Shown here in pieces: positions 5,900 to 10,468 of a stretch of DNA of 64,000 nucleotides (position 1 is its first letter; each line of letters opens with the position of its first letter). The notes beneath the pieces were generated by a model, which was not told the DNA's origin, did no database searches, and was given only the letters and a program-made list of their open reading frames with translations. The translations under genes and the position numbers were made by a program. Location: contig NZ_JAJOMA010000003.1 of assembly GCF_021129235.1 (NCBI RefSeq), positions 1-64,000 on the forward strand. The letters run 5' to 3'. The DNA comes from Kineosporia mesophila (lineage in GTDB: Bacteria > Actinomycetota > Actinomycetes > Actinomycetales > Kineosporiaceae).

Positions 5900-7702
5900 G
5901 TGCCGTTGTCGCCCCTGCGGGCCGGTGACCCGGCGACGATCGGGACCTTCCGGCTCGTCGCCCGTCTGGGAACCGGCGGTATGGGAGTCGTCTACGTCGG
6001 CACCGACGCCGCGGGCCGACCCGCCGCGGTGAAGGCGGTCAAGGCCGAGTACGCCGCCGACCCGAGATTCCGCTCGCGGTTCCGCCGCGAGGTCGAGGCG
6101 GTCCGCGCGGTCACGGGGGCGTGCACGGCCCGCGTGCTGGACGCCGACCCGGACGCCGACGAGCCCTGGCTGGCCACCGAGTACGTCGGCGGCGCGAGCC
6201 TGGACGACGTGGTGAACGCCGACGGTCCCCTCACCCCCGAACTGCTGCACGCGCTGGCCTCCGGACTGGCCGAGGCGCTGTGCGCGATCCACGCGGCCGG
6301 AGTGGTGCACCGCGACCTGAAACCGGCCAACGTGCTGCTGGCCCCGGACGGCCCGAAGGTCATCGACTTCGGCATCGCGGCGCTGGAGACGGCCACGCTC
6401 TCGTCGCGCACCGGGGTCGGGATGGGCAGCCCGGGCTACATGGCGCCGGAGCAGATCACCGGCACCACCGCGATCGGCCCGCCCGCCGACGTGTACGCCT
6501 GGGGCCTGACCGTGCTCTTCGCGGCGACCGGCCACCCGCCGTTCGGCTCCGGGCCGGCGCCGGCCCTGATGTACCGGGCCGTGCACGCCGACGTGGACCT
6601 GTCCGGCCTGCCGCAGTGGATCGAGCCGCTGGTGCGCGCCACCCTCGACCCCGAGCCGGCCCGACGGCCCGACGCCGGGCAGGTCCTGGCCGGGCTGGTC
6701 GACGAGAACGAACGGACGAGGTCCGCCGGCCGGGGCGCGCAGGCTGCCGAACCGGGCAGTCGCCGGGGCCGGCGGGCGGCCCGCGAGGCCGCCGCGGCGC
6801 CCGGCCCCGCAAACGCCCGGGAACCGTGGAACCCCGACGAGCCCGCCGTCGCCCGCACCGCCCTGTTCCCGGCCGAGCCAGCAGCGGCAGAAACCGGCGC
6901 CACCCAGCGCGTCCTGCGCCGGGAATGGCACCAGCCCGCCGCGGCCCAGGCCCCGAGCCTGCCCTCCCAGCCGCTGTACGCACCGGGCCCGACCCAGATG
7001 ACCGGCCCCGACAACCACCGCTCCCGGGTCGCCCTGGCCCTGACCAGCGCCGCCGTCGTCGTCCTGGCCGGCGCCCTGGTCTGGATCCTGTTCCTCGCCC
7101 CGGACGGCCAACCCGACGACAGCGCGGACCCGGCGCCGACAGCCTCGGTGACATCGACGTCCTCAAGCTCGCCCGAGGAGACCACCACCCCGGGCGAGAC
7201 ACCGACGCCCGAGGCGACCGAGACGTCCTCAAGTACCGAGGAAACCACCCCGGCGACCACGTTCGACGAGAACGGGATCGCCTCGTACAGCACCGAACTG
7301 GGTGACCTCGACCTGGCGTCGAGCTTCAGCACCTTCATCGTGTCGCACAACCAGCAGGTGGTGCGGATCGATGCCTCGGCGCCGAACTCCGACCACATCG
7401 ACAAGAACTTCGTCGAGCACCCGGGTGACGACGACGAGCACGACGAACCGCACTTCACGCTCTTCGAGTGCAACGGGCTCGCCGACGGGCAGGAGCCGGA
7501 CTACGCGCCGGACGCGCCCTGCGCCGCGGCCACCTACCTGCTCGACCTGGACGACGACGGCGAGGCGACGTTCGACTTCAGCAAGGGCGCCTACCACCTG
7601 GACGGCTACTTCGAGGTGGACATCGACGGCGACCCCGACGACCGCGGTGCGACCGTGGTGACGCTGTCAGGCGTCAGCACCGAAGACGCCGTGGAGAACT
7701 GA
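5900..7702 (+). CDS. Transmembrane Ser/Thr protein kinase (Hanks type, PknB-like)
   Basis: A 600-residue eukaryotic-type kinase. Residues 15-275 form the kinase domain: glycine loop LGTGGMGVVY (23-32), catalytic-spine Lys45, HRDLKPAN (138-145), DFG (156-158) and an APEQ motif. A Pro/Ala-rich linker leads to one membrane helix (about 375-395, VALALTSAAVVVLAGALVW), then a Thr/Ser/Glu-rich stalk and an acidic extracellular domain of about 150 residues that I do not recognise (no PASTA repeats). GTG 5900 has AGGAG at 5890-5894. Its 3' end overlaps the convergent flavoenzyme gene by 36 bases. The external domain probably senses an unknown ligand. Confidence 0.93.
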   Translation: MPLSPLRAGDPATIGTFRLVARLGTGGMGVVYVGTDAAGRPAAVKAVKAEYAADPRFRSRFRREVEAVRAVTGACTARVLDADPDADEPWLATEYVGGASLDDVVNADGPLTPELLHALASGLAEALCAIHAAGVVHRDLKPANVLLAPDGPKVIDFGIAALETATLSSRTGVGMGSPGYMAPEQITGTTAIGPPADVYAWGLTVLFAATGHPPFGSGPAPALMYRAVHADVDLSGLPQWIEPLVRATLDPEPARRPDAGQVLAGLVDENERTRSAGRGAQAAEPGSRRGRRAAREAAAAPGPANAREPWNPDEPAVARTALFPAEPAAAETGATQRVLRREWHQPAAAQAPSLPSQPLYAPGPTQMTGPDNHRSRVALALTSAAVVVLAGALVWILFLAPDGQPDDSADPAPTASVTSTSSSSPEETTTPGETPTPEATETSSSTEETTPATTFDENGIASYSTELGDLDLASSFSTFIVSHNQQVVRIDASAPNSDHIDKNFVEHPGDDDEHDEPHFTLFECNGLADGQEPDYAPDAPCAAATYLLDLDDDGEATFDFSKGAYHLDGYFEVDIDGDPDDRGATVVTLSGVSTEDAVEN

Positions 7703-8794
7703 CCCGGCCTGCGGGATCAGCACCTCCGGGGTCAGGTCACGCACCCCGCCACGCCCCAGAAGCGTGAGCACCGTGCGGATCTCGTCGTACAGCAGCGAGT
7801 GCACCCGCTCCACCCCGGCCTGCCCACCGGCGGCCAGCCCGTACGCCGCGAGCCGGCCGATCACCGCCACGTCCGCGCCCAGGGCCAGGGCTTTGACCAC
7901 GTCGGCGCCGCGCCGCACACCGCTGTCGAACACGATCGGCAGGCGCCCGTCGATCGCCCGGCGCACCTCGACCAGGGCATCCAGCGCCGCCGGGACGCCG
8001 TCGAGCTGACGTCCACCGTGGTTGGAGACGTAGACCGCGTGGGCACCGGCGGCCTCGGAGGCCAGGGCGTCGTCGGCGGTCATGATGCCCTTGGCGAACC
8101 AGGGCAGGCGGGTGTGGGACATCAGTGACGCCAGGCGGTCCCACGACCACACCGTGGCGCTGCGCTCGAAGAGCTGCCCGAACACCTGGATCAGGGTGGT
8201 CTCCCCGCTGTCGGGGTAGTTGCCGCCGACGTACCGGGCGTCCAGGTCGAAGGAGTTGCGCAGCACCCGTTCGCGCCAGCCGCCGGTCGGGCAGTCGACG
8301 GTCAGGCAGATCGCCGCGCACCCGGCGTCCTCGATCCGGGCCAGCATGGTCAGGAAGTTCTTCTCCGGACCCATCGGGTGCAGCTGCGCGATGCGGGTCG
8401 CCTCCGGGGCCGCCTGCACCACCTCCTCCAGGCCGAAGGTGCCGGCCTCGGGCACGATGCTCGTGATCCCGGCCATCCGGTTCGCCCGGGCGACCGCCTT
8501 CTGGCCCTCGGGGTGGAACAGGCCGTCGGCACCGAACGGGGCGGTCATCACCGGCATGGCCAGATCGATGCCGAGGAAGGTCGCCGACAGGTCCGGGCCG
8601 GCCAGGCCGCTCATCACCCGCTGCCGGAAACCCCAGTGGGAGAAGGCGGACCGGTTGGCTAACAGGGTGCTCTCGTCGCCCGCACCGCCCTCGAGGAAAT
8701 CGGCGACCTCGGGGGCGAGACGGGACAGGGCGGTCTGACGGATCACCGGGAGCGTGGCCACCTCGGGGGCCGCGACCGATTTGAATGCGACCAT
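7667..8794 (-). CDS. FMN-dependent 2-hydroxyacid oxidase / L-lactate dehydrogenase family
   Basis: A 375-residue flavoenzyme that oxidises L-2-hydroxyacids (lactate, glycolate or mandelate type) to 2-oxoacids. The active-site signature SNHGGRQLDG with its catalytic His is present. So are the N-terminal SHWGFRQRVMSGL, the FMN-phosphate region VFDSGVRRGADVVKALALGA and the strand MPVMTAPFGADGL. ATG 8794 has GGAGGG seven bases upstream; another ATG lies 18 bases further out. Whether it is an oxidase, a monooxygenase or a quinone-linked dehydrogenase is not decided. It is divergent from a TetR gene with two operator-like palindromes between, so TetR control is likely. Confidence 0.9.
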   Translation of the reverse strand: MVAFKSVAAPEVATLPVIRQTALSRLAPEVADFLEGGAGDESTLLANRSAFSHWGFRQRVMSGLAGPDLSATFLGIDLAMPVMTAPFGADGLFHPEGQKAVARANRMAGITSIVPEAGTFGLEEVVQAAPEATRIAQLHPMGPEKNFLTMLARIEDAGCAAICLTVDCPTGGWRERVLRNSFDLDARYVGGNYPDSGETTLIQVFGQLFERSATVWSWDRLASLMSHTRLPWFAKGIMTADDALASEAAGAHAVYVSNHGGRQLDGVPAALDALVEVRRAIDGRLPIVFDSGVRRGADVVKALALGADVAVIGRLAAYGLAAGGQAGVERVHSLLYDEIRTVLTLLGRGGVRDLTPEVLIPQAGSVLHGVFGADA

Positions 8795-8814
8795 CGGGCA
8801 TCCCTCCATCAAAG

Positions 8815-8830
8815 TGAGAAGATTTTCTCA
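8815..8830. promoter_or_regulatory. Operator-like palindrome O1 (TetR/2-hydroxyacid oxidase)
   Basis: TGAGAA-GATT-TTCTCA, perfect 6-base arms, just upstream of the flavoenzyme start. Together with the matching site at 8867 it is the best candidate binding site for the adjacent TetR regulator. Confidence 0.7.
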
Positions 8831-8866
8831 ACTATAGTGCTCAAATAACCACATATCACCCAGACC

Positions 8867-8882
8867 CGAGAAGTTTTTCTCG
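8867..8882. promoter_or_regulatory. Operator-like palindrome O2 (TetR/2-hydroxyacid oxidase)
   Basis: CGAGAA-GTTT-TTCTCG. The GAGAA-N4-TTCTC core is the same as at 8815, with centres 52 bases apart (about five helical turns), in the divergent promoter region. Confidence 0.7.
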
Positions 8883-8947
8883 TCTTTACTGCGCTTAACG
8901 GATGCGAAATCATCAGAGAGAAGCCCGGGATGGGAGGATCGTCGGCA

Positions 8948-9565
8948 ATGGCAGGCGACAACCTCCGGGCCGACACACTGAGAACCCGGCAGAAACTGCT
9001 GGACGCCGCGGGCGATCTGCTCCGCGAACGCGGCCTGGCCTTCAGCCTGCCCGACCTGGCCCGGCACTCGGGCGTCTCGACGGCCACCACCTACCGGCAC
9101 TTCGACGACGTGCACGCGGTGCACGACGCGTTCTACCGGCGCATCCAGAACGCCCTGCTGGCCCGGCTGCACGCGGCCGGCGAAGACCCCGACCCGCTGC
9201 GCTCGTTCGAGATCGTCTGTCACGAGTGGGTGCTCAGCGCGATGACCTGGGGCCGCGCGGCCACCCACATCCGCAGCGCCCGCGGTTACCTGGAGCGCGT
9301 CCACGACGGCTCCGACCCCCTGCTCTCCGAGCTCGACACCACCTTGACCCGGGCGGTGACACGGCTCGTGGAGGCCGGCGAGATCCCGCCCGTGGACCGG
9401 CGCTACTCGGTGCTGCTGTGGATCACGACGTTCGACGAACGGGTGATCGTCGACCTGTCCGAGACGCTGCGCTGGCCTCCGGAGAAGATCGCGCAGATGC
9501 TCGGGCATTCGGTGCGGGCCGCCTGGACAGCCACCCTTTCGGCGCAGTCCGATCACTCGACGTGA
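8948..9565 (+). CDS. TetR/AcrR-family transcriptional regulator
   Basis: A 205-residue repressor. The N-terminal HTH reads LLDAAGDLLRERGLAFSLPD then LARHSGVSTATTYRHFDDVH, the typical TetR DNA-binding module ending in YRHF. The rest is the all-helical ligand and dimer domain. ATG 8948 has GGGAGGA at 8932-8938; ATG 8930 would overlap that Shine-Dalgarno. It is divergent from the 2-hydroxyacid oxidase, with twin GAGAA-N4-TTCTC palindromes between. It probably represses that gene and itself and responds to a 2-hydroxyacid or related ligand (inferred). Confidence 0.9.
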   Translation: MAGDNLRADTLRTRQKLLDAAGDLLRERGLAFSLPDLARHSGVSTATTYRHFDDVHAVHDAFYRRIQNALLARLHAAGEDPDPLRSFEIVCHEWVLSAMTWGRAATHIRSARGYLERVHDGSDPLLSELDTTLTRAVTRLVEAGEIPPVDRRYSVLLWITTFDERVIVDLSETLRWPPEKIAQMLGHSVRAAWTATLSAQSDHST

Positions 9566-9639
9566 GCGCTCGGGCACAGATCAGGATGTTGAAATTCAGT
9601 GTGCGTGAACGGATCTGAGCATTTGGGAAGACGGTTCAG

Positions 9640-9790: not shown

Positions 9791-10468
9791 GTGATCGCCG
9801 GCGTCGTCGGACCGACAGTCCATCCCCAGGGACGCTCGGCCGGGCGTCGCTGTGTCGTCGTCCAGATGGGCGGATGCAATCTCTCCTGTACCTGGTGCGA
9901 CTCGGCCTTCACCTGGGACACGTCGCGCTTCGACCTGGCCCGCGAGGTCGGCTACTGGCGGATCGAGGAGATCGCCGAGACGGCCCGCTCGGCCAACACA
10001 CCCCTCATCGTGATCAGCGGCGGCGAGCCCCTGCAGCAGCAGAACTCCCCCGCCTGGCCACAGTTCCTCGAACTGCTCGGCGGTTACGAGATCGGGGTGG
10101 AGACCAACGGCACCTTCCCGCCGACCGAACTCACCCTGCAGCGCGTCAGCTGGGTCACCGTCTCGCCGAAGCTGGCCCACTCCGGCGACCCGGCCTGGTC
10201 GCGCATCAACCGCGAGTCGCTGGTCGCCTGGGGCCAGGTCGCCCTCCAGTACGACATCGACTTCTCCTTCGCCGTCCGGGATCTCAGCGACATCGAGTCC
10301 GCCGTGCAGATCGCCAAGCTGCACGAGCTGCCGATCGACCGGATCTGGATCGTGCCCGAGGCGACCACCGCCGCTCTGTCGGCCAGCCGCCTCGCGGCCG
10401 TCTCCGAGGCCGCGGTACAGGCGGGCTTCAACCTCTCCGCACGGCTGAGTGCCCTGACGAACCTGTAG
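9791..10468 (+). CDS. queE: 7-carboxy-7-deazaguanine synthase QueE (radical SAM)
   Basis: Converts 6-carboxytetrahydropterin to 7-carboxy-7-deazaguanine on the way to preQ0/queuosine. The radical-SAM cysteines are in CNLSCTWCDSAFTWDTS, close to the QueE consensus, followed by ISGGEPLQQQ and VETNGT. The product from GTG 9791 is 225 residues. A strong Shine-Dalgarno AGGAGGG (9725-9731) instead sits five bases before an in-frame ATC (9737). Starting there gives 243 residues beginning (M)STASELPLTAVRARP. No ATG, GTG or TTG is in frame near that site. queC, queD and folE are not adjacent. Confidence 0.88.
   Translation: MIAGVVGPTVHPQGRSAGRRCVVVQMGGCNLSCTWCDSAFTWDTSRFDLAREVGYWRIEEIAETARSANTPLIVISGGEPLQQQNSPAWPQFLELLGGYEIGVETNGTFPPTELTLQRVSWVTVSPKLAHSGDPAWSRINRESLVAWGQVALQYDIDFSFAVRDLSDIESAVQIAKLHELPIDRIWIVPEATTAALSASRLAAVSEAAVQAGFNLSARLSALTNL

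Follow-up and report, generated by a model that had tools for sequence, protein, structure and literature searches.

Two palindromes that share the core GAGAA-N4-TTCTC were found in the gap between a divergent oxidase gene and tetR gene of Kineosporia mesophila, within the 64,000-nucleotide stretch of DNA analysed here (hereafter the window). These palindromes are very probably the operators of the adjacent TetR-family repressor, in which case operator 1 would repress the oxidase gene, operator 2 would repress tetR itself, and an inducer would release both. The oxidase gene runs leftward and the TetR gene rightward. Their ATG codons, which begin at 8794 on the minus strand for the oxidase and at 8948 for the TetR, are separated by 153 bases (8795-8947) with a G+C content of 47%, compared with 70% for the window. 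At this place, tetR and the oxidase gene alone were found in the window and in four congeners. The features of the locus are as follows.

7667..8794, minus strand: gene of the FMN-dependent alpha-hydroxy-acid-oxidase family, ATG at 8794, Pfam FMN_dh 344 bits
8802-8807, minus strand: RBS-like GGAGGG of the oxidase gene
8815..8830, no strand: predicted operator 1, TGAGAAGATTTTCTCA, exact palindrome, 20 bases upstream of the oxidase ATG
8831..8836, minus strand: TATAGT, candidate -10 element of the oxidase promoter, directly next to operator 1
8867..8882, no strand: predicted operator 2, CGAGAAGTTTTTCTCG, exact palindrome on the tetR side of the gap
8885..8890, plus strand: TTTACT, candidate -10 element of the tetR promoter, 2 bp past operator 2
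8948..9565, plus strand: TetR-family repressor gene, ATG at 8948, 205 aa, Pfam TetR_N

The exact motif occurs twice in the gap, as GAGAAGATTTTCTC at 8816-8829 and GAGAAGTTTTTCTC at 8868-8881, and both cores extend to perfect 6-4-6 palindromes of 16 bp (8815-8830 and 8867-8882). The initial annotation had reported two such sites at 8815-8882 in a 153-base divergent gap, and both the motif and its location proved exact. Palindromes of the 6-4-6 type are not rare as such, with 47 in the window; it is the repeated core that is rare. When 150 bp of the gap (8798-8947) were subjected to 20,000 dinucleotide shuffles, at least one exact site arose in 21/20,000 and two exact sites in 0/20,000, while two 6-4-6 palindromes of any sequence appeared in 19/20,000 and the same core twice in 1/20,000. 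With at most one mismatch allowed, the window contained three matches vs 0.61 expected, a number reached in 4 of 100 shuffles. The 7.78-Mb genome held 11 exact sites, a count independent of any grouping of loci, and the reversed-pattern control gave 5. The remaining nine genomic sites have centres richer in G+C than those of the window pair, and a crude open-frame test failed to separate these nine from the pair, whose two sites likewise fall within long stop-to-stop frames. Taken with the comparison across loci described below, the shuffles and the genome count ruled out chance palindromes.

The repressor was recognized by its TetR_N domain (Pfam 31.1 bits, cut-off 24), and its AlphaFold model is predicted to be all-helical with a mean pLDDT of 86. 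A Foldseek search with this model, in which TetR-family proteins were the best PDB matches, gave TetR-family or similar regulators by title, along with one protein of unknown function, at 13-23% identity among the best 50 of 958 matches, and no clue to the ligand was obtained from these 50. Orthologues of the repressor were present in four of five congeners with 79-96% identity, and the fifth, which lacks this TetR, also lacks an oxidase orthologue (best oxidase match 43%). Further orthologues were identified on three named MAG contigs (57, 52, and 48% identity), in a class sample of 394 genomes searched at E <= 1e-25 (20 other genomes, two of these with weak matches), in one family (7 of 201 genomes, counting G436, the centre genome, and a single weak match), and on the Rhodococcus erythropolis plasmid NZ_CP011296.1 (48.7% identity). 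The plasmid search for TetR relatives returned two records, that of Rhodococcus and a weaker one from Pantoea (32%), and the Pantoea locus contained no site of 10/12 or better. Outside the genus, a 396-genome order sample added only two weak TetR matches and a 396-genome phylum sample no further orthologue; the TetR family is therefore scattered.

The paired sites accompany this repressor over a wide range of identity. All five genus genomes carrying the TetR (that of the window and four others) possess the pair, in which the counterparts of operator 1 match at 11/12 or 12/12, the window included, and those of operator 2 at 10/12 or 11/12. Alignment of the five genus genomes showed both sites as conserved stretches within the diverged middle of the gap. 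Distant divergent orthologues of the TetR (39-57% identity) also have the pair, which was present at 16/16 divergent orthologue loci from the genome search, the window's included, a descriptive count as the loci were grouped once their sites had been seen, and on 3/3 MAG contigs; L042-L044 were counted separately from the 16-locus set. Several loci stand outside the 16-locus count, namely the g97 loci L051-L056, without a pair (L051-L054 carry one asymmetric 9/12 match); the second G192 copy, L067, without any match; L057 of G292 and six g112 loci (L058-L062 and L066), where the site occupies the distal end of the operon or a different contig; three weak homologues without a pair (L064, L065, and L098); and two further weak homologues (L088 and L089). 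As a control, 25 loci of non-orthologous TetR genes in any orientation were inspected, of which 24 contained no site, one contained a single 9/12 match, and none contained two.

The strong orthologue loci numbered 34 (5 from the genus, 3 on MAG contigs, 5 of g86, G292, 7 of g112, 6 of g97, 2 of g82, G1230, 3 of g464, and 1 on the plasmid), and 27 of them have at least one site of 9/12 or better preceding either tetR or the structural operon. A convincing site was absent from the other seven, comprising the six g97 loci and the second G192 copy, with the asymmetric 9/12 matches in four g97 loci left uncounted. The motif is degenerate in some lineages, as in the g86 sites with 9/12 and 10/12. 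The co-occurrence of motif and regulator over many lineages, together with the negative control, supports the earlier proposal that the sites are operators of this TetR.

Some loci hold one site only, and in some loci tetR is not divergent from its putative target. In the g112 clusters examined, tetR is convergent and occupies the distal end of the operon. Directly upstream of the binding-protein gene, 6/7 g112 loci have a perfect palindrome, TGAGAAGAACTTCTCA or TGAGAAGAAATTCTCA, and an 11/12 copy, TGAGAATGTCTTTTCA, is found upstream of tetR in 4/7 (L058-L061), approximately 192 bp upstream of the tetR match, where autoregulation without a divergent target is possible. The g112 locus L076 has two candidate sites about 5.4 kb apart at opposite ends of the operon. 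On the Rhodococcus plasmid, the TetR gene is convergent to the oxidase gene, and one 11/12 site precedes the oxidase ATG by 17 bases, against 20 in the window. Scanning of 12 genomes (107.6 Mb) with TGAGAAGNNCTTCTCA revealed six sites in five genomes, each directly before a binding-protein gene. Four of these sites were known beforehand and shaped the pattern, so that the scan is only in part independent of the grouping of loci, and those of G283 and G292 were new. In G292, the TetR and binding-protein genes are on separate contigs. The same pattern was found neither in the six g97 genomes nor in G192, nor did the reversed-pattern control give any match; the G192 site was missed by the exact pattern as its centre differs. 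The two g97 loci checked for gene context (L074 and L075) contain a strong TetR orthologue without a linked oxidase or transport cluster.

Related loci place the oxidase in a larger gene set. A divergent operon encoding a binding protein, a permease, an ATPase, the FMN oxidase, and RidA is present at L042, L043, L044, L118, and three g86 loci, and representative module proteins matched PF04392, PF02653, ABC_tran, and PF01042 in Pfam. Four other loci (one of g82 and three of g464) carry the oxidase and RidA further down the same side. In L117 and L119, an MFS-like gene comes first (33.2 bits in L119, slightly short of the Pfam cut-off of 33.4) and a gene for an amino-acid permease second (~171 bits), and the gene after RidA is at best weakly methyltransferase-like. 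An MFS-like gene also adjoins the TetR gene in G436 of g82 (21.8 bits, under the cut-off), at a locus where no oxidase was found, and the g112 cluster L079 gave no RidA match. An RTT motif is carried by 15/15 of the RidA proteins inspected (L119 included), and its Arg was assigned by eye to deaminase Arg105. Furthermore, the plasmid locus L090 (NZ_CP011296.1, 14340-32903) has the oxidase next to an operon that encodes RidA and subunits of a 2-oxo-acid dehydrogenase; lpdA is close by, and this Rhodococcus cluster possibly represents a route from substrate to acyl-CoA.

The binding protein, permease, and ATPase arrangement in the related loci resembles the TrpX tryptophan ABC system (PF04392), as described in the available part of PMC9382623. 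Unlike that system, a TetR operator is predicted in place of the T-box, and the binding protein reached 166.9 bits against the TrpX model, well below the 390-bit cut-off. The arrangement was not found at the window locus, and the L044 binding protein gave 0 matches in the window's own genome (G000). Most related operons encode RidA next to the oxidase, and this arrangement, together with the motif Arg in 15/15, is reminiscent of the Rid imine deaminases, whereas the partners in the available parts of PMC4433059 and PMC5619798 are FAD-dependent amine oxidases instead of an FMN_dh protein; no RidA lies beside the window oxidase.

The best solved relatives of the oxidase are L-lactate and glycolate oxidases, with which it shares the FMN_dh domain (PF01070), and its orthologues outside the genus share 47-67% identity with the copy of the window or of L042. 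Residue equivalence was taken from alignments to lactate oxidase and to glycolate oxidase, the latter with the Rhodococcus orthologue as the query. The equivalents of Asp157, Arg164, Lys230, His254, and Arg257 of glycolate oxidase are kept in 14/14 oxidases, the window's included, and the corresponding D168, R175, K236, H260, and R263 of the A3 alignment (a numbering one higher than that counted from Met) are invariant, in keeping with membership of the FMN-dependent 2-hydroxy-acid oxidase superfamily. In contrast, the equivalents of Tyr24 and Tyr129 are Phe and His in all 14 (F34 and H140 in A3 numbering). Tyr24 and Tyr129 are the substrate-contacting tyrosines of glycolate oxidase, whose residue numbers are offset by one in the PDB chain copy. 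The tyrosine pair of the glycolate/lactate oxidase substrate site is thus replaced in this oxidase subfamily. The oxidase also fell below the NCBIfam equivalog cut-offs for L-lactate oxidase and dehydrogenase (198.1 of 645.5 and 169.8 of 550 bits). An MftD-like function was considered for the window oxidase, which scored 186.1 of the required 470.85 bits to MftD. Two more FMN_dh genes of the same genome (L124 and L126, G000 contig C23, ~326-328 kb) form a divergent pair and appear MftD-like by eye.

These results bear on the ligand of the repressor, for which lactate, glycolate, or a related hydroxyacid had been put forward at the outset. An oxidase of the lactate/glycolate type, with the TetR sensing that simple 2-hydroxy acid, would agree with the fold and the five conserved residues, with lactate and glycolate oxidases as the best PDB matches, and with the 2-oxo-acid dehydrogenase operon beside the Rhodococcus oxidase, which fits a 2-oxo-acid product. 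As the carboxylate-holding Arg residues are kept, a 2-hydroxy acid may still be the substrate. The Phe and His replacements in 14/14, the scores far under the lactate oxidase and dehydrogenase cut-offs, and the RidA, TrpX-like binding protein, and amino-acid permease encoded by related operons nevertheless make this type of oxidase unlikely, and the evidence did not support lactate or glycolate as the ligand. A hydroxy-acid oxidase would yield no imine, yet in related operons the oxidase is partnered by RidA and amino-acid-type transporters; the gene context therefore suggests an amino-acid-like or imine-forming substrate. Tentatively, the subfamily might consist not of hydroxy-acid oxidases but of FMN-dependent oxidases with a glycolate-oxidase fold that act on an imported alpha-amino acid (or amine), with RidA hydrolysing the imine and the TetR sensing the substrate.

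The start-to-start distance of the window sites is 52 bp, equal to 4.95 turns at 10.5 bp per turn. The five-turn spacing noted earlier was thereby retained, and the same-face cooperative repression deduced from it was not borne out. In a cooperative operator pair, dimers on the same face would touch each other or loop the 52 bp, so that occupancy of one site would aid that of the other. The spacings at divergent loci of 52-53 bp (genus and L042) and 63-64 bp (L043, L044, and L094) are near five or six turns and speak for such a pair, but spacings of 66 bp (g86), 50 bp (g464), and 33 bp (g82) occur as well, giving a range of 33-66 bp. Similarly, helical-phase clustering was indicated by the Rayleigh test for 8 lineages (p = 0.025) but not after these were collapsed to 5 (p = 0.28). 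Four g112 loci with candidate sites at both ends of the operon, other loci with a single site, and the finding that one operator per promoter accounts for the positions further weaken the case. Cooperativity is accordingly improbable, and the same-face arrangement is compatible with the data but unproven. Since sites stand before structural operons whose tetR is not divergent, one operator per promoter suffices and is the simplest mechanism.

Hexamers resembling -10 elements adjoin both sites. TATAGT or TAGAGT abuts operator 1 in 5/5 genus genomes, and outside the genus the hexamer at operator 1 is poor in most loci. TACAAT, TACAGT, or TAGAAT is located 2 bp past operator 2 in 3/3 g464 loci, at the same offset as TTTACT of the window, and the tetR-side hexamer is poor in L003-L005, L063, and L093. 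From the observed sites, their conservation, their co-occurrence with the TetR, and their positions relative to the genes, we infer the promoter positions, binding, repression, and induction as follows. Bound to operator 1, immediately past the probable oxidase -10, a TetR dimer would block the oxidase gene, and a dimer on operator 2, beside the probable tetR -10, would block tetR in an autoregulatory manner. Both operators would be freed by an inducer, which is probably the substrate of the oxidase, the 2-imino or 2-oxo product derived from it, or some compound related to these. In relatives, operator 1 may repress the transport operon instead of the oxidase gene.

It is very improbable that some other regulator binds the sites and the TetR acts elsewhere. 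Strong g97 orthologues without a convincing site would fit this explanation, but the motif tracks this TetR over several families and over differing first targets (oxidase, binding protein, and MFS-like gene), and 24/25 loci of other TetR genes contained no match. Should TATAGT be the -10, operator 1 would fall within the 5' leader of the oxidase gene, which would fit palindromes acting as RNA or DNA hairpins of an attenuator or terminator. This explanation is nevertheless scarcely credible, as operator 2 is probably upstream of the tetR start site, the sequence itself is kept across lineages beyond its pairing, and the window gave no Rfam match at the gathering threshold.

Repression of both genes by the adjacent TetR is consistent with known systems. 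According to the available part of PMC3511530, TetR genes less than 200 bp from a divergent gene mostly repress that gene, and TetR/tetA and kindred divergent repressors share with the present locus the divergent genes and the palindromic operators in a common gap of less than 200 bp. Autoregulation combined with target repression, as in TetR/tetA, is proposed here as well. Compared with TetR/tetA, the operator sequence differs and an efflux pump is replaced by a metabolic oxidase as the putative target. Judged by sequence, the locus fits a divergent autoregulated TetR switch of the known, textbook kind.

Downstream of tetR, before a QueE-like gene at 9791, another block was observed at 9613-9628 (plus strand) and its flanks, where the sequence around ATCTGAGCATTTGGGA is nearly invariant in five genus genomes and the flanks have diverged. 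The block is its own sole match in the window at no more than two mismatches (0 expected), gave no Rfam match at the gathering threshold, and may serve the downstream gene as a promoter or operator. That gene (9791-10468, plus strand) encodes a radical SAM protein that resembles QueE but, with 63.7 bits, falls far short of the curated cut-off of 206.1. The genes that follow it encode a 215-aa protein that matched no Pfam family and a metallophosphoesterase.

No title concerning the module or its operator was present among the matches listed from the openly licensed part of PMC. The operator is well-defined and rare in the genomes searched, and it marks the likely regulon of an import-and-oxidation module in several actinobacterial lineages; this controlled module may represent a new pathway. 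The operator also offers a direct route to the substrate through inducer screening. If the substrate is truly an amino acid, the reaction would be unexpected chemistry for the glycolate-oxidase family, and if the TetR senses such an amino substrate, a catabolic pathway that is new would be reached through the twin-operator switch.
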